Shown here piece after piece: positions 12,809 through 41,627 of a stretch of DNA of 41,627 nucleotides. The stretch is from Phycisphaerales bacterium (GTDB taxonomy: Bacteria > Planctomycetota > Phycisphaerae > Phycisphaerales > UBA1924). Below the pieces are notes generated by a model. That model saw nothing but the letters and a program-made list of their open reading frames with translations. It was not told the DNA's origin and did not search any database. The DNA lies in the NCBI GenBank assembly GCA_016764895.1, contig JAESRA010000139.1, forward strand, positions 1 through 41,627, in the 5' to 3' direction. Position numbers and translations under genes: made by a program. Every line of letters starts with the position of its first letter. The stretch's first letter is position 1.

Positions 12809-13908
12809 TGCTGATCCTCCGGAAGATAACGGAATACCTGAAGTCTCTGATTATAGGAGTCGGCGACCCAGATGAGATTGTTCCGATCAATATGAATCCC
12901 GGTCGGGAGCCAGAACTGACCGGGCCCGTGCCCCTCTTGACCAAAGGAAAGCAGCAAGCTGCCCTGGGTATCAAAGATTTGCACTGATTCGAAATGCGAA
13001 TCAATTACATAGAGATGCCCATCTTGATCGAATGCAATGCCCTTTGGGTGTGAGAAAAAACCAGGCACATCGCCTTTTTCGCCTATTTGCCGTATGGGAT
13101 TGAGATCGGGATCAAAGACCTGCACACGGAAATTGAGTGAATCGCTCACATACAACGAGCCATCGTCGGTCATCGCGACATTGGTCGGAAAGTTAAACTC
13201 GCCCAGCGATGTCCCGCGTTTCCCGATTCTTTGAAGCAACTCACCATCAAATGAAAGCACGGCGATCTGATGGGCTCCGGTATCGGCAACAAATATCCGA
13301 TGAGTAGCCGGGTCCATCACGATCCCGCTGGGCTTGTTGAGTTGGCCGTCTCCGATCGTCCCTTGATACTCGCCGACCGAACTAAAAACATGAATAATCC
13401 CCGCAGCGGCATCTGATACAAGAAGGCGTCCGAGTGAATCAAAGAAAATTCCGACCGGCTGTGCAAATGAACCCTCAAGAGGGTCTGGCTTCCATTGCTC
13501 ATAGGACCTGGATTCAAGATCAAAGACATGCACGAGCTGCGCGTTGGAATCGCACACAAAGACACGACCGGCCCCGTCGCTGCAAACCGCAAAAGGAGTG
13601 AGCATGGCCTTGGTTGATTCTTGGCCGAACAGCGTCTCGGCGAGCGATTTGAACATTGATTTGCCAGGCTTGAGATCCTCCTCGCCCATAAGTGAACCCA
13701 CATACTCGATCCGTCCTACTTCAGGCGGCGAGGGCCAAACCAACGGCGTCTCCAACGGTTCAAAGATCACCCCCTTGGGCTGAGAACACCCTGCGATGGG
13801 CAAGGCCAGAAACAACACCACAACCAAGAACCGCCAACTGTAAAAAATGCGTGCCGGGTCTGGAATAAATGCTGTGGGGAACATGGAAATGTTGGTGTTT
13901 GTGCTCAT
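12805..13908 (-). CDS. NHL-repeat beta-propeller lipoprotein
   Basis: 367 residues. A hydrophobic N-terminus ends in the lipobox LPIAGC, so it should be a lipid-anchored envelope protein. From about residue 100 to the end there are six NHL-type repeats (LTPFAVCSDGAGRVFVCDS, FAQPVGIFFDSLGRLLVSD, LNKPSGIVMDPATHRIFVAD and three more), making a six-bladed propeller with no catalytic motif. Propellers of this type serve as protein-protein or ligand platforms. The ribosome binding site is AGGA 8 bases before ATG. It sits between the beta-barrel gene and the 12-heme gene with a four-base overlap to the latter, and a second NHL lipoprotein starts the operon. The two may dock the cytochromes at the outer membrane; this is inference from context. 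Confidence 0.85.
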   Translation of the reverse strand: MSTNTNISMFPTAFIPDPARIFYSWRFLVVVLFLALPIAGCSQPKGVIFEPLETPLVWPSPPEVGRIEYVGSLMGEEDLKPGKSMFKSLAETLFGQESTKAMLTPFAVCSDGAGRVFVCDSNAQLVHVFDLESRSYEQWKPDPLEGSFAQPVGIFFDSLGRLLVSDAAAGIIHVFSSVGEYQGTIGDGQLNKPSGIVMDPATHRIFVADTGAHQIAVLSFDGELLQRIGKRGTSLGEFNFPTNVAMTDDGSLYVSDSLNFRVQVFDPDLNPIRQIGEKGDVPGFFSHPKGIAFDQDGHLYVIDSHFESVQIFDTQGSLLLSFGQEGHGPGQFWLPTGIHIDRNNLIWVADSYNQRLQVFRYLPEDQQ

Positions 13909-24818: not shown

Positions 24819-25987
24819 TATGATCGCCTTCTCAGGGTTGGGACAAGCCGGATACCGAAGTGGATCAGCATACCGAGTGTTGCAACCGTGCATGAGATGT
24901 ATGGGATCATCCATCCCGGGTTCTGAACAACCTGCAACACGGTGCCCGCGTCATCACGCAGGAATGATGCTTGGTAGAAAGTTTCACCCGCATGACGCAG
25001 CGGGTGGTTCATATAGATCAACACATCACGGTCAACATTCCGCCCCTCATCAACCAATCGGACATCGCTTGAGTAGTTGCGGGCCATCTGTGTCCCTGTA
25101 AACAAGTCGTGTTTAAAATCCACCAAGTGGAGCGAATACGGCTTGTAAGTCCGCGCAAAGCGGAGAGCAATCCAGTATGTACGACCATCGACAACAACCA
25201 TCTGTGGCTGGTCCACATAGACCGAAAGCAAATAAGACCCGATCCGCTGCTCCCCATTCATGAGAGTGACATACGCCGACGGGGCATCAACTGTTGCCCC
25301 GTCGACCCCGTTGGCCCTAGGAAGTGGCAACGCGGCGAGTTCTCGGGCGATCCCGGTGTCGGCAAGGCCTTTGCGAGACTCGGGTGCCTGCATCGGGCCG
25401 AGCATCTGCGAGTTGGGCATCCACTCAGTCACTTGAATCGTAAACGGAATGAGCTCGTTGGAAATCGTGGTGTCCGTTTCGATAAGCTGCTCAGGAACAA
25501 TAACGACAAGGTCATCAACCGGGTCCGACTGATCGACGATCGCGATCTCCGATGACCGGATATCCTCGATAAAGTTGATCGTTTCGCCCTCGCGAATAGT
25601 CATGTTGCCTTCTTTGGCAGCAAACCCGGTGACAAATTCGCCAACAAGCAGAAGGATGACGCCAAGGTGTGTGAGGATAATCCCAATCCGTTTCTTGCGA
25701 AACTTAAAGCGGACGGCATGGGCGGCGAGGAGATTAATAAACATCGCTATGCCCAAAGTGAGACCGCCCGGAAACCAGATGGCCCCGGGGATGGTGGCCA
25801 GTTCTTTGGGCACAAATATTTGGAGTTCAATCAAGACCACAAGAGATCGGAAATACTGATCAACAACGGTCCAAATCCCGGTGTGGACCTGCACCAGTGT
25901 GCCCGCAAAGACCAGGAAGATCGAGAGCGCAAAGATCACGACGGTCAGTCGGAGCGAAGCCAACGGCTTAAGTATTTTGCGAAACAT
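24818..25987 (-). CDS. resB: ResB/Ccs1 cytochrome c biogenesis protein
   Basis: 389 residues. Membrane helices near residues 12-35, 75-95 and 100-120, then a large periplasmic domain (to about 350) with PFTIQVTEW, the IRSSEIAIVD strand and MNHPLRHAGETFYQASF, and a last helix near 358-378. The L-x-G-V-I-L-L-L-V-G-E helix and the H-P-L-R-H-x-G-x-x-F-Y-Q segment are family hallmarks. ResB forms the System II heme-ligation complex with CcsA. The start shares a base with the stop of the lipoprotein gene and the stop shares a base with the ccsA start (TAATG at both joints), a sign of tight translational coupling of all three. Confidence 0.9.
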   Translation of the reverse strand: MFRKILKPLASLRLTVVIFALSIFLVFAGTLVQVHTGIWTVVDQYFRSLVVLIELQIFVPKELATIPGAIWFPGGLTLGIAMFINLLAAHAVRFKFRKKRIGIILTHLGVILLLVGEFVTGFAAKEGNMTIREGETINFIEDIRSSEIAIVDQSDPVDDLVVIVPEQLIETDTTISNELIPFTIQVTEWMPNSQMLGPMQAPESRKGLADTGIARELAALPLPRANGVDGATVDAPSAYVTLMNGEQRIGSYLLSVYVDQPQMVVVDGRTYWIALRFARTYKPYSLHLVDFKHDLFTGTQMARNYSSDVRLVDEGRNVDRDVLIYMNHPLRHAGETFYQASFLRDDAGTVLQVVQNPGWMIPYISCTVATLGMLIHFGIRLVPTLRRRS

Positions 25988-27087
25988 TATGGTGTCCCTG
26001 CCTTCCCGAGGCCTTGTGCATTGATAAAGGCCTCAAACCGCTGAAGCTCGGCCTCTACAGCAGCCACCGAACCCGTCAGCTTGAAAAATAAAGTTTGACC
26101 ACCAACGGGAACAATGCCCGCCGCCATTCGGCCCGAATCATCCGGGGCGGTAAGATCAACAAGTACCCCACCATTGCCTAAATCTTTTACGCCTTGAGGA
26201 TCAATCGATTCCACAGGAGGCAAGCCCAGTTGACCCCGCCACCGATTGATGTTGCCCAGCGGGCCTCCGCCATCACCAGACAGTGATGTCAGCGTAATCC
26301 TGGCCCCGCTCTGGGAAAGATAAGAAGCCATCAGGATGGTCGAAGCGTTCTCCTCGGCCACCCATTGGGCGGGAACTTCCCACGAACTCGTTGACGCAGC
26401 ACTTTCCACCGGCTCAGAAGCGGGTTCTGGAGTGGATAAAGATTCGCCATGATCATGATCAGCATCATGATCGTGATCGTCCGCTTGGTCATGGATGTGG
26501 AGACTAGCGGAGAATGCAATCAGATCGGCCTTCACTTGCTCAACCACATCGGCAGGCCCCATTGCCTTGGCAAACCAGGTTTGCCCGTCACCCACATTGA
26601 TAATCGAGCCGATCAAACGGATGGTTTCCCCGGCGAGATCCACGATGATCACATCAACACCTTCGATATGCGAAATATCCTCGTTCAAACCCTGCTCATC
26701 AACCGGATCGAGACCAATCTGCCCTCTCCAGCGATTGACATTGGCGATGAGCCCGCCGACATCCCCAGGAAATGCGGTGATCGCGATCTCTTGGCCATTG
26801 GAGGCCCTGAAAGTGGTGATGCGCATCGAACTGGTTGTTTCAACCTCTGTCCAGGAAAGCGGCACCTTCCAGATCACCCCAAGGGATTCTGTCTGGGCTG
26901 GCTGCTTCTGCTCGACTATCGGCACAGAAGAACCGTCGAACTCACGATCCACCCGATATGAGTGGATCTCGGCACGATCGCAACCCGCAAGAAACGCCAA
27001 CTGTCCAAGCCCCCCCATTACAACGCCACATGCGAGCATGCTTGACTTGAGATCGCCTGGCAACCGCAACATCATTCGCTGATTCAT
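25987..27087 (-). CDS. Lipoprotein with tandem NRWRGQ domain and His-rich linker
   Basis: I choose MNQRMMLRL (366 residues), AAAGG 9 bases upstream. A lipobox (FLAGC) marks it as a lipoprotein. Two copies of the same domain follow: the first contains ITAFPGDVGG and NVNRWRGQIGLDPV, the second LTSLSGDGGG and NINRWRGQLGLPPV, each starting with W-x-V-P-x-x-W. Between them lies HIHDQADDHDHDADHDHGE, a likely metal-binding stretch. I know the single domain as an uncharacterised protein often found near cytochrome biogenesis genes in the Planctomycetes-Verrucomicrobia group; the function is not known to me. First gene of the operon with resB and ccsA. A role in metal or heme delivery on the periplasmic side is possible, not shown. 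Confidence 0.75.
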   Translation of the reverse strand: MNQRMMLRLPGDLKSSMLACGVVMGGLGQLAFLAGCDRAEIHSYRVDREFDGSSVPIVEQKQPAQTESLGVIWKVPLSWTEVETTSSMRITTFRASNGQEIAITAFPGDVGGLIANVNRWRGQIGLDPVDEQGLNEDISHIEGVDVIIVDLAGETIRLIGSIINVGDGQTWFAKAMGPADVVEQVKADLIAFSASLHIHDQADDHDHDADHDHGESLSTPEPASEPVESAASTSSWEVPAQWVAEENASTILMASYLSQSGARITLTSLSGDGGGPLGNINRWRGQLGLPPVESIDPQGVKDLGNGGVLVDLTAPDDSGRMAAGIVPVGGQTLFFKLTGSVAAVEAELQRFEAFINAQGLGKAGTP

Positions 27088-27284
27088 GGAAAGAACCTTT
27101 CCTGTATCAACCTCTTTGCGCAACGGTCAAAATTGTCCAAAGAAATTGAACTCAATCCTATCAATTATCATCTGCGATTTCCACGAATTACGACAAGAAC
27201 TGACACAATCGCAAATCAAACTTGCTCAGAAAGGGCCTATGCCAATGCGTCGAAAATACCGCTCGCGTTTCAATGCTAAAGAAG

Positions 27285-28521
27285 GGAATCTCTGAATAAT
27301 CGCACAACTCCCACCGATTTTATCCGTACCGTCTCATGACCCAAGTTTTCATCTTGACTCAGGAGATTGACCATGCCAATACGAAAGAATGCACCGATGG
27401 GGTTTGCTGATATCGTTCTCGAAGACCTGGGCTCTTCGCGCACCTCCAAACTCCTGTCCAGGCTCGACGCCGCGACGCCTTGGGACACACTCGCCCATCC
27501 GATCAAACAACTCCCCGAGTACAAATCACACGGCGCAGGCAGGCCGCCTTTGGGGGGTGGGAGCCGGTGATGATGCTCAAGCCAAGTGGTTCAATCTCTC
27601 AGACCCAGGGCTCGAAGAAGCACTCCTGGATCGCATCAGCTTCGGCAAGTTCGTCGGCTTATCCTTCACCGATTCCACACCCGACGAGATCGCCTTCGTC
27701 AAGTTTCGCAAGCGGTTCCGCGAATCCAGGCTCGACGACTACCTCTTCCAATCCGTCGTCAAACACCTTGATTCTAAGGGTTTTCTCGTGCGCGAAGGCA
27801 CGATGGTCGATGCGACAATCATCGAGCAATCGACTGGCGCAAAGAACGACGACAGCGAAAACACCCGCGATCAAGACGCAAGCTTCACCAAAAAGCACGG
27901 CAAGACGCATCACGGCTACAAAGCACACATCGCCTGCGATCTCTCGGGTGTGATCACCGAGTACAAAGTGACGACGGCCAAGGTGCATGATTCAAAGTGC
28001 ATCGACGAACTCGTTGAAGACGAAGAAGAAATCGTCTACGCCGACAGCGCGTACTCGTCGAAGGATCGACGCGCGTCGTTGCGCGAGCGTGGCGTGATCG
28101 ATGCGATTGTCTATAAAAGGACACGCGGGCAGAAGGATATCTACGATTGGCAGGACCGGTGGAATGTGCTTGTTTCGAAGGCTCGATCGAAGGTGGAGCA
28201 TCCGTTTGCGATGATGAAGCACCAGCTCGGATATCGCAAGGTGCGCTACCGCGGCCTGGAAAGAAACGCATTCGATGTGTGCTTGATGTTGATGGCGTGC
28301 AACTTGAAACGAAGCGTATGGCTTGGGCAGAAATGTGTGGAACCTGTACCAAGGAAGGTGTGATGTGCGCGGTGGCTGCGCGCTGATCGAGGCCAGAAAG
28401 CTTGAATCAAGCGGATTCGGTTCTCGAAAGCGTGACTTTAAGAGATCAAGCGTGGAACTCTTGCAACGATACTCGATTTCGAGTAGAATTAGGCGAGAGC
28501 CTTTGATTGGTCAGAGACTCC
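27285..28521 (+). mobile_element. IS5-family insertion sequence, decayed
   Basis: Candidate ends are GGAATCTCTGAATAATC (27285-27301) and, inverted, GGAGTCTCTGACCAATC (28505-28521), which agree at 14 of 17 positions. The span of 1237 bases is typical for the IS5 group, and it encloses a transposase of that group. I see no target duplication next to these ends, so the exact borders are uncertain. Its transposase reading frame is broken. It separates the cytochrome region from the accessory region and abuts a truncated NTPase gene. Confidence 0.65.
27367..28363 (+). pseudogene. IS5-family transposase, two frameshifts
   Basis: The N-terminal part (MPIRKNAPMGF... to GRPP) is in the frame of 27367. 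The next piece (FGGWEPVMML) is in another frame, and from AKWFNLSDPGLEEALLDRISF to the end the frame of 27389-28363 continues. So two frame changes are needed: one at the run of six G near 27552-27557, the other near 27579 where a few residues expected between MMLK and AKWF are missing. The rest is intact: DDE-type residues in TMVDATIIEQ, YADSAY and KARSKVEHPFAMMK-type E, plus the HHGYKAHIACD region. The first shift could be a programmed frameshift site; the second, with missing sequence, points to decay. Confidence 0.8.
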
Positions 28522-28776: not shown

Positions 28777-28944
28777 ATGTACATATTGTATCAAGGCCTG
28801 CCCTAGCAATTAATGCCACAACCTCATTTCTCTTCAAATTAGCAGAGGCTTTAGACTTTCCGTATCCACATCATTTGCAGAGCAACCGCAAATATTGAGA
28901 AATTTATTCTTTGCGTATCTGATCCCATTCGCCCGTTTCCACCC

Positions 28945-29035
28945 TCTAGCGGGTCAAAATACGGGTCAGAGCGGGTCAAGCCCAATTCCTTCTATACCGA
29001 GTATCCATCAAAAAACGCCACTGGTGCATTACCAA
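28945..29035. repeat. Direct repeat copy A, left of the helicase gene
   Basis: TCTAGCGGGTCAAAATACGG and the following bases match copy B (35017-35108): 36 of 39 bases in the first block, a diverged middle of equal length, then a perfect 21-base block starting CCATCAAAAAACGCC. It contains three RCGGGTCA octamers with starts spaced 12 and 10 bases. The 21-base block is the T-run arm of the tRNA-type terminator seen intact in copy B. This repeat fills most of the 305-base gap 28777-29081; nothing else is visible there. Confidence 0.8.
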
Positions 29036-29081
29036 GGGTATATTTTTGTTGAGAACGGTTGCAGATATACTTCCTGGAAAT

Positions 29082-32000
29082 TCACTTTGATTTTTTGAAC
29101 GTGTCAATGCATCTTTCGAAATAACCCCGAGTATCCTCTGCCAGTCCCCCTAACCCAATCAAGCGAGCTATTTCTCGTGCCGGATCTTCGCTTGTAACCA
29201 ATCCGGGATTGTCAGAAATCAAACCTAAAATTTCTGCTTGAGGTATATCTCGTGGCCCCCTATCTGGATTAGATCGATACGGGATTACTGATTGATAAGA
29301 AACAGCAGCCCAAATAAAGATGCTTCCGTTTTCCTTATGACGTTCATTTTTACCAAGGCATTGAATTACTCGTTCTTGGATACGACGACCAGCACGCTGC
29401 CAACCATGCCGACGGGCAATGGCTCTATAGAGAAGAGTATCACGAATAGGGCCTTGCTCCTGAACAACCTCAGTCACAAGAGCCTTGAGTGTCTGTGTAT
29501 ATCCCCATTCAAAGAATTGATCTGGATCAAGATCTAGTTCACTTGATTGAGTTAACTCTTCACCATCTGCAATGGGCTCAACACTATGGCCAGATCCGAA
29601 CTGCTCCGAAACTTGCCCTGGCAAACTCGATGTTTCGATATCCGCCGTAATACCACTGGAATCCTGCTCAGCAGCATCTTCAGGATTATCGTCAGCAGAA
29701 GTTACTTCAGAATCTGAGGCTGGTTCTTCACATTCGACTTTGACTCGGCTCTCCTCAAGAAGAGTCTTCAGATTGTCATCAATCCGTTCCATTGCCTGAT
29801 CAGGTCGCATGAACCAATCTGTTGACCATATGCGAAGAATTTCCCACCCTAGATTTCTCAGAACACCTTCTCTGATTTCATCCCGATCACGAGCAGTCGC
29901 CGAACTATGGTATGTTGCCCCATCACACTCAATACCAGCAAGGAATGCACCCGCATGATCTGGATGAACCACAGCTAGGTCAATCCGATACCCAGACACG
30001 CCGATTTGAGTTCGAACCTCCCAACCCAAAGAACGAAGAGATTCAGCAACAGATTCTTCGAACGGACTCTCTGCAGGACCAAGAGATCCTTCATCCATAG
30101 CAGGGAGTGCGATGGAACCTCGCTGTGCATAATCAAGATAGTTCTTCAGATGTAAAACCCCCAAGCCCTTGCCACGGTTGGTGTCAATATCTTCTGCCAA
30201 AATGGATGAAAACACATGAAACTCAGACTTGGCACGAGTAACAGCAACATTGAGCCGCTTCTCTCCGCCGTCTCTATTGATGGCCCCAAAATCCATCTTG
30301 AGTTTTCCAGCGATATCGCGTCCAAATGTTATTGAAAAGATCATGACATCACGCTCGTCACCTTGAATATTCTCAAGGTTCTTCACAATGACAGGCTCTT
30401 CCCGTTCATCATCAAAGAACCATTCCAACTCTGGCGATTTTCTGCGTACCGTATCGAGAAGGTCAAGTATCAACTCTTGCTGAGGTGCATTGAAAGTGAT
30501 TACCCCAAGTGTTTTCCGGATCGCCTCATCAAGTTTTATCCAATCCTTGAGTCTCTTTGTGATGAACTCGACAATAGCTTTAGCCTCAATTTCATTCGTT
30601 CGGCCTGACCCTCGTGCATAGATGCCTGAAACCTTATGGAACTGGACGGCGTCTGATGCTGTCCTCGGGGAAGGAAAGGTAACGAGTCGCTCACCGTAAT
30701 AGTGGTGATTCGAGAATACAATCAGAGCCTCGTCACGACTTCTGTAATGCCAATTGAGTTGATGCAGTGGAAGCCCTGCGGCTGTCGCCTCATCCAGAAT
30801 ACTGGACAAATCCCGCTCATGGAACGCTGTTTCATTATCTTCTTCATCATCTGTTCGCCCAAAGAAATTAGTAGGTGGCAACTGCTTCGGATCTCCAACA
30901 ATGATTGATTGCTTGCTTCGTGCAATTGCACCAACAGCATCCCAAGTCGTGATCTGTGATGCTTCATCGAAAATCACCATATCAAATATCGCATGATCTG
31001 CCGGAAGATACTGTGCTACAGACAATGGAGACATGAGAACGCATGGGGTTAGTTGGGTGAATGTAGTAGGCATACCCTCAATGAGCTCTCGAATGGATGT
31101 GCGTGGCCGTTGCAGCCCGAGTTGATGACGAAGCATTCCCAACTCTGATTTCCTTGGGACGCCATCACGAGTCGGCAATCCATGTGAAATCGCATGGCGA
31201 ACCTGGCTTGCTGCAAGCTTTTGCACGGAGCAAATCAATTCCCTGAATCGTTCAATCTGATCTTCTTGCTCCCAATGCACGAAGCTGCGAAGTCGAGGTT
31301 TCTCGTCAATAGCTAAGGGGAGCCACCAGCTAAAGTAGGAAGCACTGAACTCCTTACCTGAATCCTGAACAAGCCCGGCAGTAAGAGCCTCTGTAAGTGA
31401 ATCCAAGCCACGAGCTTTCGCTTCTTTTTTTACTTCCGACCACTTTACCCAGTCCTGAAGCCGGTTTGAGTTTGTTTTTATATCTGAAAGAAGTTGAATG
31501 ACTCTCTGAAGAGAAGACGCTTGAATCGGCCCGCCTGATTTTGCGACAAAAGATTTCCCAGCCTGATCAAAGCTTGCCTTAGCCAATCGAAGATCTGTTG
31601 CCGATTTTGCTAGTTCAGATGAATCCCCGCCCAACATTGCCACAGTTTCAAAGTCTACAAGATGATCACTGGTGACTTTGGCAAGTCTTTCGATTTCTGC
31701 TATCGACTTTCTCAAGTCCAATGCTTTATCCAAATATTCACGCATGTCTTTAAAATTGCTTTGCACTCCCTCAAAATTCGGAAGACATGACAGCGGACTG
31801 GCTGAAATAGTACCATAAGTTTCTTGCAAGTCCCTCAATAAAGGTATCTCACTATCAGGATCAACCGAACCGTCAGCAGCATAACTCTGGAGTAGTTTTT
31901 TTACTCGCATTTTTCCCAACAATGAAAATGGCCATAGCTTCGCATTCTGCTGCCGCCAGTCTCGATCGATTTCATCGAGTGGGATCCGTGAAAACTCTTT

Positions 32001-34910
32001 TTCTTTATAGCTTGCTGTAAGTTGGGAGTGCAACTTGCGGAATGTGCCGACTGATTGCTCAAGATCATCAATCCCTGAAACAACAGCTTCAAACTCCCCC
32101 CTCAGTGCAACACGATAATCATTTTTAGCTATACCGCCAACTGATTTGGCGAAATGCATGAGAGCTGTAAGACGAGAATTTGAAATCAGCTCATCTGGTG
32201 TCAGCCCTATCGATTTCTCAAGCGCATGACACGCACTCACTAAGTTCTTGGTTTCTACATCAAATGACTCCGCACATTCAAGAAGTTCCGCTTGCCATGC
32301 AAAAGACCACTCTGTTTTATCTACGCCATCAAGAGCGGTGCAATCGGAAATCGACGAGTGTGTCAATCCCATGCGTTCTGCTAACGCTACCAAAGAAGAG
32401 AAACTCTTCTCATCATGAGCATTCACGCCTGCAAACGATAACTCGAAAACTGCTTCTGATCCTGACAAAGACCCAATTGCGTCGAAGACACTGTACCCGT
32501 GACTGCCCTTCTCGTGCAGTTCATGTACATACTCGTTCAACTTGTCACGCTTTATTTTCAAATCTTCAGTCAGTCGAATCCATTCCTCGTCTGTATTCTC
32601 TGCCGCACGATCCCATGCTTGACCTAGCTGGGCAATTACCGATTTTCGATCTGTTTTGTTTGAATGAAGTTCAAGGCAAGCGTCAGCCAGGCCATAGGCT
32701 TTGAGCCTTCGATACACAACATCGAGTGCGGCCGATTTTTCAGCGACAAATAGAACTGTTTTTCCATGAGCCAAACAATGAGCGATCATATTGGCAATGG
32801 TCTGACTCTTGCCCGTACCTGGAGGGCCGATGATAACAAAATCCTTGCCCGCTTGAGCCGCAACAACTGCAGCAAGCTGTGAGCTATCCGCTGGTAGTGG
32901 CGTGTAAACACTGCTCGGACTGATTCTTTCGTCGATATCACGGGGCTCAGGAAAATCATCCCCACCATTTTGAAATCGCTCAGTTGGATTCTCAAGTAAA
33001 TGCCTGACTAATCGATTCGTTTTCAAGCTATCGGTGCGATCTACAAGGTCTTTCCACATCAAATATTTTGCGAATGAGAATGTGGAAATTGAAATATCTT
33101 GAACGACTTCAAACCCCGGAACCTCCCGCACAGCTTGCTGCATGATTTCGAAAATCAGTTTGATGTCTAGACCAGATTGATCCGTTGAAAGATCCCCACG
33201 AAGAGCAGGTATCATCAGCCCAAAATCTCGTTCAAGCATCTCAAGAAGCGTTTGATTAAAACGAACTTCATCTTCGTGATGCGAAATGTAGTAGCTCGAT
33301 TGAGCTGATCTACGACTCAGCTTTATTGGCAAAAGAAGTAGTGGAGCCCGATAGACTCGCTCCTCCTTATCTGATTTCTTCCATCGCAAAAAACCTACTG
33401 CCATAAACAGAGTGTTTGTCCCGCCTTCTGACATGTCGCTCTTTGCTTTTCGATACAGCGTAGTCAATCTTGACTTCGTTTCTTTCCCTGTTTGAATAGC
33501 ACACAACTGCCCTTTTTCAAACGCACTTGCAGCGAAGTCGCTCTGTATATCACGCCCCGTTTGTTGTCGATAAAGTTTGGGATCACGATTCCCAACAGGG
33601 TTTTCATCTTTGAGTGATATCACACGAAATCTCTTTCCGTCCGCTAGGGCATCTTCAAGAGATGGGACATCTGCACAGACAAAGCCGAGGGTTTGACGAG
33701 TATCAGAAAAATTCAGTAGCCGATTTCTCAGAGACAGATCAAGCAATTTCTTTTGCCATCGTTCCAAACGACCAGATGGATCAGTAGGGAGTTCTTCAGC
33801 AATGTCTGCTGGCAACATGTCAAAACTTGGGAGCTTTGGTAATGAGGCAGGAGTGACAGTGTCATCAACGGAATCCTTTGTAGCTGTGTTTGCTTGATGG
33901 CTTGCGAGCGGCCTAATTCCAGCAGAACGAGCACGCGCGATATCAATAGCCATCCGAAAATCATGCTCTCTATCTTCAGATAACTGAGCTTTTCCACTCG
34001 CTTTAGCCTGTTCAAATCCCACCACAGGACGCTGAGTTAAAAGCGTCGTCTCTAATGTCAAAAACTCTCTCGAATTGATCGCCTTTCGAATTTCAGTAAC
34101 ATCTGACTCAACGGTCATCGGGAATGTTTTTTCTACAAGCCAAACTCCTACAAACGCATGATCCTTTGTAAAAACAATAGCTGGATTGAGTTTTACTGCT
34201 TCGAATGCTGCCGCCAAGAATAATGCTGAATCTAAACAGGTAGCGAGCCCTGTGTCAGCGATAAGACCTGGGTCACGAATCTTCTGGCCTTGCTTTTCAA
34301 ATGAGCGAGGCGGCTGGGCGTATGAAAGCCCCATCCCACTTACAGCAGACCAAATCGCTGCTGCGAGCATGTATGCTCTACGAGGGTCGCCGGATTGGTA
34401 TCCGTTCAATGCACCGCTATGGCCATCTCGCTCAAGCAATCTTGATGCTTCTTTCAATATGAGAGCCGTTTGCACATGATTAGGCGATACAAATGCAGCC
34501 AAAATCTGTGACATCTCAGCAGAGCCGCCCCATTCATCACGAGCCAATAGTTCAATCGGAACTACTCGTTCATTGAGCAACTCGTCTTCAGAATACAAAC
34601 AAAAAGTAAGCTGACCATGCTCTGCCTCATTGAGCCCATCAAGTACACTGAAGTCTAGTGTTACTTGGAGATCACCAAGTTGAATATCCTCGCCAGCCGG
34701 TATCCGATCAATTGTCCATTCTTTCGATTTACAGAAAGCGGGCTGAGGCTTCATCGTCAGCTTCAGTTTCTTGAACTCTTGCTCAGTCTCATTGAGGATT
34801 GAAATCCGCTTGATGATCGGGACCGCATTCTGAGCGGCTGCGAATGTCGTCCTCGATACCGCATTGATATCGAGCTTTGGAAACTTTGGTGTTTCAAGGT
34901 CTTCAGTCAT
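29082..34910 (-). CDS. DUF4011-SF1 helicase-Vsr-like nuclease-DUF3320 protein
   Basis: 1942 residues. Order of domains: beta-rich head; transglutaminase-like segment (TCLDSALFLAAAFEAV near 223, TKDHAF); DUF4011 (RLERWQKKLLDLSLRNRLLN near 378); split SF1 helicase with Walker A GPPGTGKS near 694, a long coiled-coil insertion (about 820-1180), Walker B IFDEAS near 1313, GDPKQLPP and VAVTRAK near 1553; an MTES_1575/Vsr-like nuclease with D and E-C-D-G near 1640-1660 (YRIDLAV, GIECDGATYH, RIWSTDWF); DUF3320 (about 1797-1900). All motifs look intact. Proteins of this composition occur in defence islands; I recall one being named Hhe in a large defence screen. It probably unwinds and cuts foreign DNA. 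It stands alone between two direct repeats. The ribosome binding site is weak (GGGATAGGC). Confidence 0.9.
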   Translation of the reverse strand: MTEDLETPKFPKLDINAVSRTTFAAAQNAVPIIKRISILNETEQEFKKLKLTMKPQPAFCKSKEWTIDRIPAGEDIQLGDLQVTLDFSVLDGLNEAEHGQLTFCLYSEDELLNERVVPIELLARDEWGGSAEMSQILAAFVSPNHVQTALILKEASRLLERDGHSGALNGYQSGDPRRAYMLAAAIWSAVSGMGLSYAQPPRSFEKQGQKIRDPGLIADTGLATCLDSALFLAAAFEAVKLNPAIVFTKDHAFVGVWLVEKTFPMTVESDVTEIRKAINSREFLTLETTLLTQRPVVGFEQAKASGKAQLSEDREHDFRMAIDIARARSAGIRPLASHQANTATKDSVDDTVTPASLPKLPSFDMLPADIAEELPTDPSGRLERWQKKLLDLSLRNRLLNFSDTRQTLGFVCADVPSLEDALADGKRFRVISLKDENPVGNRDPKLYRQQTGRDIQSDFAASAFEKGQLCAIQTGKETKSRLTTLYRKAKSDMSEGGTNTLFMAVGFLRWKKSDKEERVYRAPLLLLPIKLSRRSAQSSYYISHHEDEVRFNQTLLEMLERDFGLMIPALRGDLSTDQSGLDIKLIFEIMQQAVREVPGFEVVQDISISTFSFAKYLMWKDLVDRTDSLKTNRLVRHLLENPTERFQNGGDDFPEPRDIDERISPSSVYTPLPADSSQLAAVVAAQAGKDFVIIGPPGTGKSQTIANMIAHCLAHGKTVLFVAEKSAALDVVYRRLKAYGLADACLELHSNKTDRKSVIAQLGQAWDRAAENTDEEWIRLTEDLKIKRDKLNEYVHELHEKGSHGYSVFDAIGSLSGSEAVFELSFAGVNAHDEKSFSSLVALAERMGLTHSSISDCTALDGVDKTEWSFAWQAELLECAESFDVETKNLVSACHALEKSIGLTPDELISNSRLTALMHFAKSVGGIAKNDYRVALRGEFEAVVSGIDDLEQSVGTFRKLHSQLTASYKEKEFSRIPLDEIDRDWRQQNAKLWPFSLLGKMRVKKLLQSYAADGSVDPDSEIPLLRDLQETYGTISASPLSCLPNFEGVQSNFKDMREYLDKALDLRKSIAEIERLAKVTSDHLVDFETVAMLGGDSSELAKSATDLRLAKASFDQAGKSFVAKSGGPIQASSLQRVIQLLSDIKTNSNRLQDWVKWSEVKKEAKARGLDSLTEALTAGLVQDSGKEFSASYFSWWLPLAIDEKPRLRSFVHWEQEDQIERFRELICSVQKLAASQVRHAISHGLPTRDGVPRKSELGMLRHQLGLQRPRTSIRELIEGMPTTFTQLTPCVLMSPLSVAQYLPADHAIFDMVIFDEASQITTWDAVGAIARSKQSIIVGDPKQLPPTNFFGRTDDEEDNETAFHERDLSSILDEATAAGLPLHQLNWHYRSRDEALIVFSNHHYYGERLVTFPSPRTASDAVQFHKVSGIYARGSGRTNEIEAKAIVEFITKRLKDWIKLDEAIRKTLGVITFNAPQQELILDLLDTVRRKSPELEWFFDDEREEPVIVKNLENIQGDERDVMIFSITFGRDIAGKLKMDFGAINRDGGEKRLNVAVTRAKSEFHVFSSILAEDIDTNRGKGLGVLHLKNYLDYAQRGSIALPAMDEGSLGPAESPFEESVAESLRSLGWEVRTQIGVSGYRIDLAVVHPDHAGAFLAGIECDGATYHSSATARDRDEIREGVLRNLGWEILRIWSTDWFMRPDQAMERIDDNLKTLLEESRVKVECEEPASDSEVTSADDNPEDAAEQDSSGITADIETSSLPGQVSEQFGSGHSVEPIADGEELTQSSELDLDPDQFFEWGYTQTLKALVTEVVQEQGPIRDTLLYRAIARRHGWQRAGRRIQERVIQCLGKNERHKENGSIFIWAAVSYQSVIPYRSNPDRGPRDIPQAEILGLISDNPGLVTSEDPAREIARLIGLGGLAEDTRGYFERCIDTFKKSK

Positions 34911-35016: not shown

Positions 35017-35108
35017 TCTAGCGGGTCAACAAACGGGTCAGAGCGGGTCAACCCCAAAATCACCAACTCCCTCGCTCCATCAAAAAACGCCACTGGTTCA
35101 ATACCAGC
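35017..35108. repeat. Direct repeat copy B, right of the helicase gene
   Basis: TCTAGCGGGTCAACAAACGG onward; colinear with copy A, with the same spacing of its two conserved blocks and three RCGGGTCA octamers at 35021, 35033 and 35043. Both copies have the same orientation, so the 6.07 kb helicase segment between them could be lost or gained by recombination. Confidence 0.8.
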
Positions 35109-35116
35109 AGCGTTTT
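35082..35116 (-). terminator. Terminator downstream of the tRNA-Ala fragment
   Basis: On the - strand AAAACGCTGCTGGT pairs with ACCAGTGGCGTTTTTT around ATTGA: an 11-base-pair stem with two G-U pairs and a T6 run. It sits 8 bases after the end of the tRNA fragment, as expected for the terminator of the original tRNA gene. Confidence 0.7.
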
Positions 35117-35123
35117 CTGTAAA

Positions 35124-35168
35124 TGGAGACGAACGGGATCGAACCGACGACCTCTTGCATGCCATGCA
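35124..35168 (-). other. 3' half of tRNA-Ala(GGC), attachment-site remnant
   Basis: On the - strand the 45 bases begin TGCATGGCATGCAAGAGGTC and end with CCGTTCGTCTCCA. They contain the anticodon loop (AT-GGC-AT), the anticodon stem 3' strand GCAAG, variable loop AGGTC, T-loop GGTTCGATCCC and the acceptor 3' strand. The 5' half is missing: the sequence before it does not contain a D-arm or matching acceptor strand. Such a fragment is what an element leaves when it integrates in a tRNA gene at the anticodon arm. No working tRNA gene is in the window. Confidence 0.75.
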
Positions 35169-35248
35169 GTGCACATGCCTTCCTATCAGCCATTGAAGGC
35201 TGTTATTGAGGTTTCGGAGGGGCTGTGGGGGACTCGTTTGGACCCAAA

Positions 35249-35268
35249 GCGGGTCAGGGAGCGGGTCA
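35249..35268. repeat. Pair of GCGGGTCA octamers, right arm
   Basis: GCGGGTCA starts at 35249 and 35261, 12 bases apart, the same spacing as the first two octamers in copies A and B. Lying on the other side of the tRNA fragment, it could be an arm-type binding site of an integrase. The remaining bases of the 384-base gap 34911-35294 hold no gene that I can see. Confidence 0.6.
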
Positions 35269-35294
35269 GAATGAGATGAGACTTCGAACCGATA

Positions 35295-37124
35295 TCACTC
35301 AACCTCTCGGGTTAAATTGCCAGGACTCCACACACATTCTGCGAGATGTTTATACAGATCCTGGCGTGCATCTAGATCGACTTTCTTGAACTCTGCATGA
35401 GGCTTGAAATCGAGCCCTGAGTCATTGATGAATCGCTTGAAGCCAGGGTCATTCTCATATGCACGATCATGAAGGCTCTGAGCGAGCAGATTCTGTTTCA
35501 GATAGTGCTCCTGTTTGTGACTATAAGATTTGTCGCCATAGCTCGCATTGAAGCTCTTTGGGAGAAGAAGAAGCCCTCCAATCCTATTTCTATACTCAGC
35601 GAAATCTGCTGGATGACTGAACTCATCAGTGTGACGCTCTGCATGATCTGCCCAGATATGCTCAACCTCATATCCATTCTTGCCTTTACGGCTCATGTAC
35701 TCCATGTATCTTGATGCTCGGCCCGATGATGTCTCGGAAAAGTCTGTCATCCGTGCGAGCAAGCGATGGATATGCTTGCGATTCATTCCTGTTAGATGGA
35801 AGCGATCGTTCGATGCGAACTTGAACTCATCATCTTCGAGACGGTCAGTCAGTATCCTTGCAAGATTTTCTGGTGACTGGCCTCGGATATCTTTGATGAT
35901 TACAAACATGTTGTACTGCATGTTTGAATACGAAGTCATTTTCCAGTTCCAGAGACGGCGTGCAATCACGATGTCAAGGTACCCCGCCACGATGCGAATC
36001 TTTCGCAAGATGTCCTGCTCTGAATCTCCTCGTTTGATGGCGGCGAGCAACACGGGGTACTGCAAGGTGAAGTTGTTCTGGGCATTGTAGTAGACAGCCT
36101 CCATCCCCTCCGTGAGGGTTTCTGCGGCGTGACGAAGCTTTGAGTACCACTTCGTATAGAAGGCAAAGTCTTCCTCTATGAATCGAGCAAAGTCTGTCGA
36201 ACCTGATAGACCAAGAGTTTCTTCATGATCACGTACCCACCGATGAAACTCCGTTCCTATTAGATCAAAGTCCTTAGGCATGGCTCCCTTCTTCCGCTCC
36301 CGGGTACTCTGCGCATGCTGACTTCGAAGCCAAGCCTTGATTGCGTCGGCATCCTCCTCTTTCCCGATATCTTGGAGTTTCGAGATGTGCTCACGCCAGA
36401 TCTTGCTCGCCTGAACTCGTTTCTCCCCATCGGTGATGTTTGCTAGTAGATACCCCTTCAACATGTCTGTTGGAGTGAGTGAGAGCCCTCGATCATTCAT
36501 GGTCTCGAAAATTGTGTATGCATCAGAATCTGAGTATGCCGTAATCTCGACAAGATGGACATTCTCAATAAACCAATCTGCGAAGAATGGGAGTGCTTCC
36601 CCAGTTAGGCTTTCTGGAAAGAACTCCTCGATATCGTGGAACCGATGCAGGATGTTTGTAACGGACTCAGACTGATCCTCCTCATCAAAAGGCTCGCCTT
36701 TGAAGAGGGCTTCCATGCATGGTGTGCGTTCAGGAACATCGAGATTGAAGGAACGCTCGCCTCGCTTGAGAGAGTAAATAAGCTTTGCAAGCTGGCCCTT
36801 CTGCTCCTCATCCTCAAGATTCCGATACACATGAATGAGAATAAGCGTCAGAGAAGTGAGTCGCTGCTGTCCATCAATAATGTACTTGTGCCCGTCTTTG
36901 TCGCTGATGATAATTGAGCCTAGAAAGTAGTGCCCGTATGTTTCGACGGCTGATCGCTCATTGCCTGCTTCATGACTCTCTTCAAATTTTTCAGTGAGGT
37001 CGTTGAGAAGTTCTACGATCTGCTTACGCTCCCAACGATATTCTCGCTGATAGTAATCAATTGCGTAGCGAGCATTACTCAATAACGTATCGATATTTTT
37101 GGCATCACCACGAATCTCTTTCAT
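35295..37124 (-). CDS. DUF262/DUF1524 (GmrSD-like) nuclease
   Basis: The start at MKEIRGDAK (609 residues) has AGGAG 8 bases upstream. The N-terminal DUF262 domain shows the hallmark YIIDGQQRLTSL near residue 83 and FETMNDRGLSLTPTDMLKGY, the ParB-like nucleotide-binding part. The C-terminal DUF1524 domain contains the HNH-type motif YEVEHIWADH near residue 482 and RIGGLLLLPKSFNASYGDKSY (N and K of the motif). Together they make the single-chain form of the type IV restriction family GmrSD, which cuts modified phage DNA using nucleotides. Both motifs are complete. It lies next to the tRNA fragment and divergent from the RecQ-PRTase gene. Related DUF262 proteins also occur in other defence systems, so the exact target is open. 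Confidence 0.85.
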   Translation of the reverse strand: MKEIRGDAKNIDTLLSNARYAIDYYQREYRWERKQIVELLNDLTEKFEESHEAGNERSAVETYGHYFLGSIIISDKDGHKYIIDGQQRLTSLTLILIHVYRNLEDEEQKGQLAKLIYSLKRGERSFNLDVPERTPCMEALFKGEPFDEEDQSESVTNILHRFHDIEEFFPESLTGEALPFFADWFIENVHLVEITAYSDSDAYTIFETMNDRGLSLTPTDMLKGYLLANITDGEKRVQASKIWREHISKLQDIGKEEDADAIKAWLRSQHAQSTRERKKGAMPKDFDLIGTEFHRWVRDHEETLGLSGSTDFARFIEEDFAFYTKWYSKLRHAAETLTEGMEAVYYNAQNNFTLQYPVLLAAIKRGDSEQDILRKIRIVAGYLDIVIARRLWNWKMTSYSNMQYNMFVIIKDIRGQSPENLARILTDRLEDDEFKFASNDRFHLTGMNRKHIHRLLARMTDFSETSSGRASRYMEYMSRKGKNGYEVEHIWADHAERHTDEFSHPADFAEYRNRIGGLLLLPKSFNASYGDKSYSHKQEHYLKQNLLAQSLHDRAYENDPGFKRFINDSGLDFKPHAEFKKVDLDARQDLYKHLAECVWSPGNLTREVE

Positions 37125-37166
37125 CGATCTAACTCCTGACCTACACAAATGTTTGCAATACTCCCT

Positions 37167-37348: not shown

Positions 37349-39421
37349 ATGGACTACCCGCAAGATAGAGCTTTAGAACTGCTACGCATAGGTACAGGCG
37401 ACAGTGACTCCAACTTCCGAGATGATCAAGAAGAGGCCATTCGTCACATAGTCGAAGGCGATGGACGCCTGCTTGTTGTTCAACGAACTGGATGGGGGAA
37501 AAGCTTTGTATACTTTATTTCCACCAAAATCCTTCGTGAAAATGGTATGGGGCCCTCTCTTCTTGTTTCCCCACTCTTGTCATTGATACGAAATCAACTA
37601 GATGCTGCTGAAAGAATGGGGCTCAATGCTGTCACTATTCATTCTGAGAATAAAGACGAATGGGCAGCGATTGAAGAGCAGGTTCGATCTGGCGATGTTG
37701 ATATTCTACTAATCTCACCAGAAAGATTTTCAAACCAACGGTTCCAAGACAATGTGCTATCACATATCGCAGGACAAATTTCAATGCTCGTTGTTGATGA
37801 AGCCCATTGCATTTCCGATTGGGGCCATGATTTTCGCCCCAACTATCGGATGATTGCACGCATCGTCTCCTCGTTACCAGCAAACACCCGATTGCTTGCA
37901 ACAACAGCAACGGCAAATAACCGAGTCATGGAAGACCTAGAGGAACAAATTGGACCTGATCTTACAGTCCTTCGTGGCCCTCTTCATAGACCGTCATTGT
38001 TGCTTCAAACCATCTGTATCGATGACAAGGCAGAAAGACTTGCTTGGCTTGCGGAACACATCCCCACTATCCATGGCAGCGGTATCATTTATACACTAAC
38101 AATCCGTGATGCAAAACAGGTTGCCGATTGGCTGAAGTTGCAGGGCCTGAATGTTGAAACGTACACCGGGCAAAGCGGCGACGTTCGCCCTGCACTCGAA
38201 TCAGCCCTCCTCAACAACGATGTCAAAGCACTTGTCGCCACTACTGCGCTAGGCATGGGGTTTGACAAGCCGGATCTGGCGTTTGTGGTTCATTATCAAA
38301 CACCAGGTTCGGTTGTCGCATATTACCAACAGGTTGGCCGTGCAGGACGAGGGATTCCTGAATCCCATGGCATCCTCTTGAGCGGTAGTGAGGATCAAGA
38401 GATCAATGATTTCTTTATCAACTCGGCCTTCCCCACACAGATCGAAGTTTCAGAGATTCTCAATGCTCTCGAAAATGCACCCAACGGGCTCACGCTTCCA
38501 AACCTCCTCGCAGAGATCAACCTCAGCAAAGGAAGAGTAGAAAAAACACTCCAGCGGCTCAGCTTGGAATCACCAGCACCACTCGTAAAAGATGGCAGCA
38601 AATGGATGCGTACAACATCAGAACTCAGCGATGATTTCTGGGATCGAGCGGAACGACTCACTGCCCGCCGAAAAATTGAGCAAAGCCAAATGCAAGAATA
38701 TGTTTCCCTTGATGCTGACCATATGAAGTTTCTTGTTTCCGCCCTCGACGGGGATACTAATGGGATTGAAACGCCAGAAATAGCATCTATCCCAGAAACA
38801 GTTGATTCGGAACTGACATTGAGTGCTATTGAGTTTCTACGCCGAACATCTCTCCCAATTGATCCACGGCGACAGTGGCCTGCTGGAGGACTACCCAAAC
38901 TCAATGTAAAAGGTCGCATACCTGCTGGACTCCAGTTGCAACCAGGCAAAGCCCTCTGTGTTTGGAGAGATGCCGGATGGGGTAAATTGGTCTACAGCGG
39001 GAAATACGAGGACGACTGTTTTTCGGATGATCTTGTTGCAACGTGCCATGATTTGGTTCAAAACTGGAGCCCTGAGCCACGGCCTGAATGGATCACATGC
39101 ATTCCATCACATCGCCGGCCCGAACTCGTCCCCAACTTTGCTAAACGACTCGCCGAGAGCCTGTCACTGCCATACCATGATTCTCTTCTACGAGTAGATG
39201 AACACCCAGAACAAAAGGAAATGCAAAACAGCTCCATGCAAGCGAGAAATGTTGACGGAGCATTTGTCGTGATTAATGGTGACTTACCAAATGGCCCAGT
39301 TTTGCTGATTGATGACATGGTTGACTCAAAGTGGACTCTTACAATTGCTGGATGGCTACTTCAATCTCGTGGTGTTGAGACAGTGCATCCCCTTGTACTT
39401 GCAGATGCAGGCAAAGGATAA
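37349..39421 (+). CDS. RecQ-family helicase fused to a phosphoribosyltransferase domain
   Basis: 690 residues; GGAG 5 bases before ATG. N-terminal RecQ core: FRDDQEEAI (Q motif region), Walker A variant QRTGWGKS near 49, DEAHCISDWGHDFRPNYR near 149, TATAN, ALGMGFDKPDL and QQVGRAGR. The usual RecQ zinc-binding cysteines and HRDC domain are not seen. Residues about 520-690 contain CVWRDAGWG and the phosphoribosyl-pyrophosphate-loop-like GPVLLIDDMVDSKWTLT near 651, as in ComF-type phosphoribosyltransferases. Here the last residues of the loop are SKWT, where active enzymes have TGxT, so catalysis is doubtful. The DprA-like gene starts 6 bases after the stop. In the ShosTA defence system a phosphoribosyltransferase is paired with a DprA protein; this would be a helicase-fused version. 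Confidence 0.88.
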   Translation: MDYPQDRALELLRIGTGDSDSNFRDDQEEAIRHIVEGDGRLLVVQRTGWGKSFVYFISTKILRENGMGPSLLVSPLLSLIRNQLDAAERMGLNAVTIHSENKDEWAAIEEQVRSGDVDILLISPERFSNQRFQDNVLSHIAGQISMLVVDEAHCISDWGHDFRPNYRMIARIVSSLPANTRLLATTATANNRVMEDLEEQIGPDLTVLRGPLHRPSLLLQTICIDDKAERLAWLAEHIPTIHGSGIIYTLTIRDAKQVADWLKLQGLNVETYTGQSGDVRPALESALLNNDVKALVATTALGMGFDKPDLAFVVHYQTPGSVVAYYQQVGRAGRGIPESHGILLSGSEDQEINDFFINSAFPTQIEVSEILNALENAPNGLTLPNLLAEINLSKGRVEKTLQRLSLESPAPLVKDGSKWMRTTSELSDDFWDRAERLTARRKIEQSQMQEYVSLDADHMKFLVSALDGDTNGIETPEIASIPETVDSELTLSAIEFLRRTSLPIDPRRQWPAGGLPKLNVKGRIPAGLQLQPGKALCVWRDAGWGKLVYSGKYEDDCFSDDLVATCHDLVQNWSPEPRPEWITCIPSHRRPELVPNFAKRLAESLSLPYHDSLLRVDEHPEQKEMQNSSMQARNVDGAFVVINGDLPNGPVLLIDDMVDSKWTLTIAGWLLQSRGVETVHPLVLADAGKG

Positions 39422-39426: not shown

Positions 39427-40683
39427 ATGAGCATCTCATCAAATACACAAGCAATCCTACTCTTGACTGCACCACTGATTAATGGGCATCGAGGCAAGGA
39501 CGCACCCAAAACTCTTTCACAGGGCCAATATCGAAAGGTTGCAAAATTTCTACATGAGCGAGCTTTATCCCCATCCGATTTTTTACTTCAAGATGCAAGC
39601 CCACTAATTGACGAGTGCCAATCCTCACTTGAAATTCCACCACTCGTTCCTCTACTTGGGCGTGGTTTCCAACTGAGTCAGGCTCTTGAACGATGGTCAC
39701 AGAGATCTATATGGGTACTCAGCAGAGCTGATGCCGACTACCCACAGCGTTTGAGAAAACGCCTTGGGGATCTTGCACCACCAGTACTGTATGGCTGCGG
39801 CAACCCCGCTCTGCTGAATCGTGGCGGACTGGCGGTAGTCGGTAGTAGAAATATCTCCGACGAGATTATCCGATTCACAAATGATGTTGGCCGTCTTGCT
39901 GCAAATGCAAACTTTGTACTCATTTCTGGTGGAGCACGAGGTGTTGATCAAGCAGCAATGCAAGGGGCTGGTGAAACTGGCGGATATGTAGTTGGCATAC
40001 TTGCAGACAGCCTAGAACGAGCATCTCTCAAGCATGAACATCGAGAAGCATTGCAGAATGGATCAATGGTTCTCTGTTCGCCATACGATCCAAAGGCCGG
40101 TTTTATAGCTGGGCATGCGATGCAACGCAACAAGTTTATTTACGCACTGTCCGATGCCGCACTCGTCGTAAACTCTGACTACAAAAAAGGGGGCACCTGG
40201 ACAGGTGCTGTTGAGCAATTAGACAAACTCAAGCTAGTGCCCATCTTTGTACGCACAGGCTCACAACCAAACCAAGCCATGGGATCACTTCTCAATAAGG
40301 GGGCGTCACAATGGCCGTGCCCTCGAAATGTGAAGGAGTTGATTTCGGTCATTGATACTTCGAAGATCACAATGCCAAACACGCCCCAAAGCAACTTGTT
40401 TGATAGCCCAAACCATCCCTCAATAAATGAACACGACAGACCCACGTCAAATGACAAGCCGAGTAAGCCGCCGAAGCCATCTACAATTGATCCAGCCGAA
40501 TCCTTGTTCATGCTTGTGCAGAATTTAATTCTTGATATGGAAATGCCAATCAATGAGGAGACAGTTTCAAAGAAGCTTGATGTATCAAAAACTCAAGCTA
40601 GAAAATGGATCATCAGCCTTTGCGAATCCGAGAAACTCCAAAAGAAAACACGGCCCGTTCGCTACACACGAATTGATTCATAA
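39427..40683 (+). CDS. DprA-like protein with C-terminal winged helix
   Basis: 418 residues; AAAGGA overlaps the stop region of the upstream gene. After a helical N-terminus comes the DprA Rossmann-like domain: YPQRLRKRLGDLAPPVLYGCG, LAVVGSRNISD, LISGGARGVDQAAMQGA, RNKFIYALSDAALVV and GGTWTGAVEQL. A Pro/Ser linker then leads to a winged-helix domain (PINEETVSKKLDVSKTQARKWI). Classical DprA loads RecA on incoming single-stranded DNA; in ShosTA-type pairs the DprA member controls a phosphoribosyltransferase partner. Six bases from the RecQ-PRTase gene, it is more likely part of that system than a housekeeping DprA, which is usually beside topA or smf-related genes. No terminator with a T run is seen between it and the convergent small ORF. 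Confidence 0.88.
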   Translation: MSISSNTQAILLLTAPLINGHRGKDAPKTLSQGQYRKVAKFLHERALSPSDFLLQDASPLIDECQSSLEIPPLVPLLGRGFQLSQALERWSQRSIWVLSRADADYPQRLRKRLGDLAPPVLYGCGNPALLNRGGLAVVGSRNISDEIIRFTNDVGRLAANANFVLISGGARGVDQAAMQGAGETGGYVVGILADSLERASLKHEHREALQNGSMVLCSPYDPKAGFIAGHAMQRNKFIYALSDAALVVNSDYKKGGTWTGAVEQLDKLKLVPIFVRTGSQPNQAMGSLLNKGASQWPCPRNVKELISVIDTSKITMPNTPQSNLFDSPNHPSINEHDRPTSNDKPSKPPKPSTIDPAESLFMLVQNLILDMEMPINEETVSKKLDVSKTQARKWIISLCESEKLQKKTRPVRYTRIDS

Positions 40684-40981: not shown

Positions 40982-41627
40982 TCATTCCTTGAGTATTTCC
41001 ATCTCAGGCATCTGATCCCAGACTTGGCCATCTAAGACTCGCCCTGCTGCCTTCTTGTTCACGCCGCCCCACTGCTTGAAGAAAAACGCAACGCCCGCAG
41101 TCACGCACTGGTCTCTGAGTTCACGCACCCAAACTTGATCCATCGGGCGTGACTTTGGACCCGATTCGCCTCCGACAATCACCCAATGGATACCACTGAG
41201 ATCGAGACTCGGCAGAGGCCCGATCAGCGGTTCCAATGACAAGAAACGCACCTTTGCGGGAATCTCTCTCAAAGGTTCCACACGGCTGCATACATTATCA
41301 TTCTCAATGCTCGCCCCCATGAGAATGTTGTCTGTCCAATGAAGTTCCGCTGCAAGTTCTAGGGATCTCTCAGGCCGCTTCGTCAGAATTTGAAAGCGAT
41401 GTTGAGGACATTCATTCATAACTGCGAAGACTTGCTGGATGAACTCTACAGGGACATCTCGATGAAACAGATCGCTCATCGAATTGACGAAGATCCAACG
41501 GGACTTTCGCCAACGCCTTGGAATCGCAAGCGTGTCTGGATGACATCGAACGACTCCATTGAAGTGACGCTTGCCCTTGTCGTTGAGAACTGTGAGGCCT
41601 TCGTATTTGGGCTGGCCCATGTTCCCA
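40982..41627 (-). CDS. DUF5131 (phage Gp37/Gp68-like) protein, 5' end outside window
   Basis: The frame is open to the right edge (N before the M at 41620), so that M is internal. The visible 215 residues hold the family text RWRKSRWIFVNSMSDLFHRDVPVEFI, HRFQILTKRPER, WTDNILMGASIEN, RFLSLEPLIGPLP and WVIVGGESGPKSRPM, ending with FFKQWGG. The usual N-terminal cysteine motif (radical-SAM-like, G-C-x-x-CYA) should lie beyond the edge. The biochemical role of the family is not settled; members are found in phages and genomic islands, often beside a three-Cys-motif partner protein. Here a 71-residue ORF follows in the same transcript. Confidence 0.85.
   Translation of the reverse strand, partial: GNMGQPKYEGLTVLNDKGKRHFNGVVRCHPDTLAIPRRWRKSRWIFVNSMSDLFHRDVPVEFIQQVFAVMNECPQHRFQILTKRPERSLELAAELHWTDNILMGASIENDNVCSRVEPLREIPAKVRFLSLEPLIGPLPSLDLSGIHWVIVGGESGPKSRPMDQVWVRELRDQCVTAGVAFFFKQWGGVNKKAAGRVLDGQVWDQMPEMEILKE

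Follow-up and report, generated by a model that had tools for sequence, protein, structure and literature searches.

Tandem integrative elements carrying defence genes at tRNA-Ala(GGC) in an uncultured planctomycete, and their probable trans-mobilisation by a sibling element

A lambda-type attP has a core placed between a P and a P' side, both of which carry arm sites. CIMEs possess att sites, have no recombination genes of their own, and move with the aid of a related element; these elements, and the tandem accretion of ICESt1-related elements, are reportedly the subject of work by Pavlovic et al. in 2004, cited in PMC3146451. In Dehalococcoides, several ssrA islands lie in tandem downstream of one RNA gene and are bounded by short repeats of its 3' end, for which accretion has been proposed; some of them have no integration module, and the module of others comprises the serine integrase DsiB, targeting the tmRNA (PMC3146451). 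In Methylophilaceae, fGI-2, an additive island at tRNA-Lys, and the tycheposons are flanked by a tRNA gene, and the 3' fragment of the tRNA recurs to mark each successive unit (PMC10872708, which credits the first tycheposons to Prochlorococcus). A literature search that mostly excluded subscription journals returned no description of a planctomycete system of this kind.

The window analysed here is a 41,627-nucleotide stretch from a Phycisphaerales bacterium, corresponding to the entire contig C90 of a 2.6 Mb assembly in 268 contigs. From the letters alone, the first-pass annotation had described, at 35017-35268, a 45-base 3' half of tRNA-Ala(GGC) with its terminator, placed between arrays of the octamer RCGGGTCA, and had read it as the attachment site of an element extending to the right. 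An octamer search, a hairpin fold, and a 30-mer match locate all of these components where they had been reported. On the left, a P arm (35017-35051, plus strand) contains octamers at 35021, 35033, and 35043, in steps of 12 and 10 bp, with 80% of its columns identical over four sites. It is followed by the Rho-independent terminator of the tRNA-Ala (35070-35126, minus strand; -27.4 kcal/mol, z = -6.6), which travels with the P arm, and by the tRNA half itself (35124-35168, minus strand), sharing an exact 30-mer with the intact tRNA-Ala on contig C44. The tRNA half ends in the anticodon stem-loop, CTTGC-ATGCCAT-GC(A), beyond which intact tRNA loci are no longer homologous; ARAGORN detects no whole tRNA gene anywhere in the window. 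On the right, a P' arm (35197-35269, plus strand; nhmmer P' model, E about 1e-36; 64-74% of columns identical) consists of a conserved segment and two octamers 12 bp apart (35249 and 35261). The repeat-like words GGACTC (35230) and GGACCC (35240) precede these octamers, in register with GGGTCA at 35251 and 35263, so that the steps are 10, 11, and 12 bp, that is, about one helical turn. Such phased repeats match the layout expected for arm-type sites, and the octamers are putative arm-type binding sites.

The octamer occurs 9 times in the window, for 2.66 matches expected, and none of 100 shuffles reaches 9; a Poisson estimate gives a probability of about 1e-11 for five octamers within 252 bp. 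All five octamers of the site are on the plus strand. The third array noticed by the first-pass annotation, copy A, does repeat the left pattern with its 12/10 spacing (octamers at 28949, 28961, and 28971), and it now proves to be a P arm with the left half of the terminator (28943-29047, plus strand; nhmmer P-arm model, E about 1e-26). As it has neither a tRNA half nor a P' arm, it is a decayed site. A DDE (DUF772) transposase gene (27389-28363) is found close to it, at the left boundary of the island.

Six octamer pairs are present in the same genome, distributed over contigs C44, C90, and C215 and always at such sites; the reversed control pattern does not occur at all. The 30-base tRNA piece is found on exactly the same three contigs. 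These are unjoined contigs, the draft assemblies break near these repeats, and most of the genomes compared are fragmented draft MAGs. On C215, the composite site is repeated in full (8685-8959). C44 carries the intact tRNA-Ala(GGC) that the first-pass annotation had proposed to look for (4657-4731), adjoined by a P arm of two octamers, as well as a decayed site (1918-2025); a type II restriction-modification pair lies between the two, identified by PADLOC as a restriction enzyme and a methyltransferase. Octamer starts at 0, +12, +22, +228, and +240 are conserved to the base at four sites in three genomes (the window, C215, G142, and G141), where identical columns amount to 80% for the P octamers, 69% for the terminator, 80% for the tRNA half, 64% for the P' segment, and 74% for the P' octamers, against 7% and 10% just outside the site. 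At all four sites, direct repeats in a set order and phase flank the core on either side at a fixed distance, as in a lambda-like attP. Being short, and found in isolation at window position 19270 and at C215:10360 and 11475, the octamers could instead be binding sites of a transcription or chromosome-organisation protein, standing by chance beside a tRNA pseudogene. This is hardly credible for paired arrays that keep a fixed distance from tRNA-Ala or tRNA-Val cores and lie at element ends, no such arrays having been found away from tRNA halves.

The exact octamer pair is present in 10 of 163 genomes of the family, eight from the same genus and two from genus g9. In a sample of 397 genomes of the class, two others have one match each, which does not exceed the reversed control pattern; a scan of viral contigs with the octamer pattern matched 39 stretches. 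The intact tRNA-Ala(GGC) is also accompanied by a P arm in G128, G132, G136, G142, G019, and L109, and it is intact without arms, as an empty site, in eight congeners; the DNA downstream of this tRNA gene varies widely between congeners. Sites with one arm are found at window position 28943, at C44:1925, and several times in G142 and G141. Since some sites have lost one arm, many copies may be immobile. Several further features were observed in these islands. About nine complete or decayed sites occur within 27 kb of G142 (C11, 136-163 kb; L192 and L193), and one element there runs from an Ala core to a Val core, which suggests recombination between site types. A segment of about 310 bp is repeated in several island units, with 81-86% identity to one copy in G128 (C33); its repeats in G142 lie at 38254-38569, 42189-42499, and 66054-66371 (oriented coordinates).

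The relative G132 allows the two arms to be assigned to their owners. There, the DUF4011 gene and a P arm directly abut an intact tRNA-Ala. The window and G132 share this DUF4011 cassette (71.6% identity over 2.9 kb plus 74.0% over 1.5 kb), and their homology runs to the core, beyond which the window continues with the P' arm and G132 with the 5' half of the tRNA. This divergence at the core assigns the three left octamers to the left, DUF4011-bearing element and the two right octamers to the right one. By this comparison, the composite site is the junction of two tandem elements, rather than the end of one. The first-pass annotation was right to extend an element to the right over the DUF262, RecQ-PRTase, DprA, and DUF5131 genes; the three left octamers that it had included belong to another element, and the far right end lies off the contig. 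The cassette also occupies different positions in the two species. Further left, the stretch on one side of the G143 tRNA-Ala locus gives no match to the left flank of the window. The protein encoded at 25987-27123 is found, in the relatives that have it, on different contigs from tRNA-Ala; two more copies of it exist in the assembly, on C174 (84% identity) and C101 (62%).

The T-arm of tRNA-Ala(GGC) exists in several variants among congeners (G000, G128, and G136 versus the others) and among the copies in G141, and the variants are possibly exchanged together with the 3' half at insertion. The three copies within G000 agree. A fixed tRNA half per cassette was considered and is not borne out, as the T-arm at the DUF4011 cassette differs between G000 and G132.

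The ends of single elements can be delimited by joining their flanks in silico. In G019, from another genus, one clean element (61205-66418) has a tRNA half and P' arm without a P arm at 66.3 kb, and a P arm with an intact tRNA-Ala at 61.2 kb; joining the flanks at the core restores a complete tRNA-Ala(GGC) and releases an element of 5,099 bp. Like a CIME, this 5.1-kb element has att sites at both ends, here around two candidate genes, and no recombinase match was found within it. A protein judged from its sequence to be an NAD-dependent epimerase-like enzyme adjoins the far ends of both the G019 element and the G141 array, with 73% identity, and this common neighbour supports a chromosomal boundary at that position. 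A second tRNA gene is used in the same way. On contig C210 of the source genome, a composite site with the 3' half of tRNA-Val(CAC) (13459-13712) and an intact tRNA-Val(CAC) with a P arm (42728-42902) bound an element of 29,271 bp, whose arms are the same as those of the Ala sites and whose joined flanks give a complete tRNA-Val(CAC). Likewise, excision of an 11,632-bp element in G143 restores an intact tRNA-Val(CAC). Both cores are anticodon stem-loops, CTTGC-ATGCCAT-GCAAG for Ala and CTGCC-ATGTGAC-GGCAG for Val. The G019, C210, and G143 elements all have the ends typical of tRNA islands, namely a regenerated tRNA at one end and a displaced 3' fragment at the other. An integrase lies inside the Val element of C210 and in the island of G142; the G019 element has none, nor do the window elements as far as they are visible.

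The cargo of the window elements is related to defence. The left element carries a protein with DUF4011, AAA_11-AAA_12 helicase, MTES_1575 nuclease, and DUF3320 domains (29082-34910, minus strand; Pfam), which scores 1186 bits against PADLOC PDC-S37 and is also Hhe-like. The right element carries a GmrSD/DUF262-type nuclease (35295-37148, minus strand; Pfam), matched by HEC-06 and also by SspE and type IV restriction-enzyme models in PADLOC. It is followed by PsyrT, a RecQ-like helicase with a phosphoribosyltransferase (37349-39421, plus strand; 887 bits over residues 3-687 of 690), and by PsyrA, which is DprA-like (39427-40683, plus strand; 428 bits); the two genes are adjacent, as in a PsyrTA system. 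A DUF5131 protein (40982-41620, minus strand; PADLOC PDC-M41B / PDC-M30B) covers Pfam profile positions 48-243 only, and its N-terminal part probably lies off the contig end. The C210 element brings a type III restriction endonuclease, methylases, and a helicase. In G143, a unit between two sites made of a tRNA half and a P' arm encodes a phosphate-selective porin, a phosphoesterase, a PhoU-like protein, and a PHO4 transporter, and units in G141 encode an HD-domain protein and an alpha/beta hydrolase. The units found in relatives are mainly composed of phage-defence or nutrient genes, often without an integrase of their own.

The integrase that the first-pass annotation expected to the right has candidates elsewhere in the genome, in the sibling element of C210 at tRNA-Val(CAC), and none linked to the site in the window. 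Eight genomes of the family encode the first of them, IntA (about 291 residues), beside a RuvB-like ATPase and a 166-residue protein that has no Pfam match and is read as AlpA-like; in most copies, an amidoligase-family gene accompanies them. This module (amidoligase, RuvB-like ATPase, AlpA-like protein, and XerC-like recombinase IntA) occupies C210:19552-23398 and was also observed in G143, G128, G084, G019, G056, and G058; a literature search of the same coverage as above found no description of a RuvB-recombinase-amidoligase module. In G142, some 0.3 kb separate IntA from a P' arm, and in the source genome IntA lies inside the C210 element; RCGGGTCA arms are not nearby in most copies of the module, and octamer-like clusters beside the IntA copies outside arrays (G084, G128, G143, G019, G056, and G058) form no clear arm set. 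Its catalytic set is complete (R146, K173, H237/R240, H264, and Y273, that is, R-K-HxxR-H-Y). No domain stands ahead of its core-binding helices, and the nearest folds are XerA and other two-domain recombinases. Relatives of IntA in viral contigs are distant (26-29% identity), and the best plasmid matches among those listed are about 29-33% identical.

The second candidate, IntB (about 380 residues), is located inside the C210 element (C210:30384-31523, equivalent to L245:385-1524) and also within the island of G142 and the element of G136. At its N-terminus, the model of IntB shows a beta-hairpin and a helix; full-length lambda Int is the best match, at a TM of only 0.37. By eye, the G of 'NCGFG' seems to take the place of the first catalytic arginine. 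The IntB family, matched in 51 of the 397 class genomes, displays an LNCGFG motif with an apparent G in place of this first arginine, and keeps the later R, H, and mostly Y. IntA is placed first as the probable catalyst on the basis of its full catalytic set, in view of the apparent loss of the first arginine in IntB. The genomes G132, G136, and G141, which carry sites and are more than 90% complete, have no IntA, and G132 and G141 have no IntB either. The elements in these three genomes may be stranded relics, and the sites of G132 and G141 fit trans-mobilised or stranded units.

Many small tandem cassettes of one to few genes, whose sites share one orientation and contain a strong hairpin, call to mind an integron-like array, in which the tRNA-half sites would be folded single-stranded recombination sites; IntA even gives a weak match to integron-integrase models. 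This match, nevertheless, reaches 69 bits for a cut-off of 265, and IntA scores better as XerC (170 bits, also below its cut-off of 335), which leaves it outside the IntI type. Besides, the hairpin is the tRNA terminator, the crossover falls in the anticodon loop and not in an attC-like stem, and the single G019 element has two-ended arms and tRNA restoration, so this reading is highly improbable. A broader scheme, which we regard as rather unlikely, would have IntA, the RuvB-like helicase, the AlpA-like protein, and IntB together distributing small integrase-less cassettes to two tRNA genes, as a tRNA-anchored analogue of an integron array. In such a scheme, IntB, having apparently lost its first catalytic arginine, may be an arm-binding architect, and the shared octamer arms would let one machinery use two tRNA cores.

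The explanation preferred here, with good confidence, is that two integrative elements stand in tandem in one tRNA-Ala(GGC) gene and most likely owe their mobility to a tyrosine recombinase that a sibling element supplies in trans. Each element would have a P' arm (two octamers and two related repeats) just inside one end and, just inside the other, a P arm (three octamers), the terminator, and a replacement tRNA 3' half. With the crossover in the anticodon stem-loop, insertion would rebuild an intact tRNA at the P end and leave the tRNA 3' half followed by the P' arm at the other. A string of islands would then arise as further elements insert into the rebuilt tRNA, with a P - terminator - 3' half - P' site, like that of 35017-35268, between neighbours. 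In the window, the left element brings the DUF4011 defence helicase and the right one HEC-06/GmrSD, PsyrTA, and DUF5131. The sibling would share these arms, as does the 29-kb C210 element at tRNA-Val(CAC), and the recombinase would be IntA, aided by an arm-binding partner, either the AlpA-like protein or IntB. Sequence comparison reveals the arms, the core, the tandem order, the intact tRNA, and the restoration of a tRNA when flanks are joined; we infer the role of the octamers as arm-type sites, the trans-action, the choice of recombinase, and present activity. The islands are most likely CIME-like.

These sites could also be dead remnants, that is, old island ends strung at tRNA-Ala, now immobile, whose arms are fossils. 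This possible but less probable reading differs from trans-mobilisation only in present activity, and the confidences placed in the two overlap. It draws on the decayed sites (28943-29047, C44:1925, and those of G142 at 140.4, 141.8, and 162.9 kb), on the window having no linked integrase, and on the sites of G132 and G141, whose genomes encode neither recombinase. Against it speak arms and spacing kept far better than the flanking DNA, an IntA retaining its full catalytic set in the source genome, and one cassette standing at different positions in different species. The attachment-site reading of the first-pass annotation holds in its amended form: neither the joint absence of an integrase and an intact tRNA-Ala, nor octamers frequent genome-wide without relation to islands, was found.

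Defence genes can, thus, gather unit by unit at one tRNA gene in an uncultured planctomycete, as can phosphate-uptake and signalling genes in its relatives. The signature of an octamer pair with a tRNA half offers precise bounds for single units. If common arms allow a single recombinase to act on both tRNA genes, these elements would constitute a natural test of how arms and core divide the choice of target.

Compared with the Dehalococcoides ssrA islands, those described here are similarly in tandem, bounded by repeats, and partly without integration genes; they differ by their targets, tRNA-Ala and tRNA-Val, by their tyrosine recombinases, and by the octamer arms kept at junctions. They resemble Methylophilaceae fGI-2 and the tycheposons in being tRNA-flanked cargo islands with 3' fragments for each unit. 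The passages on the 20-bp tRNA-Lys repeats of Methylophilaceae mention no arm arrays (PMC10872708), and in the present islands the 3' half extends as far as the anticodon loop, with a single arm set common to two tRNA genes. The tRNA-integrated islands catalogued by Islander (PMC4383910) likewise end in a regenerated tRNA and a displaced fragment, whereas the present ones are tandem, small, often integrase-less, and equipped with common arms. With CIMEs and ICESt1, they share att sites without recombination genes and the help, predicted here, of a related element; the helper is, however, probably located in a different tRNA gene, and no conjugation genes were found among the helper genes examined. 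As in a lambda-type attP, phased direct-repeat arrays extend about 100 bp on each side of the core, but the P and P' arms of one junction come from two neighbouring elements, and the candidate IntA has no arm domain. The kind of system is already known; a variant with arm arrays kept at its junctions and one arm set used with two tRNA genes did not appear in the literature searched.
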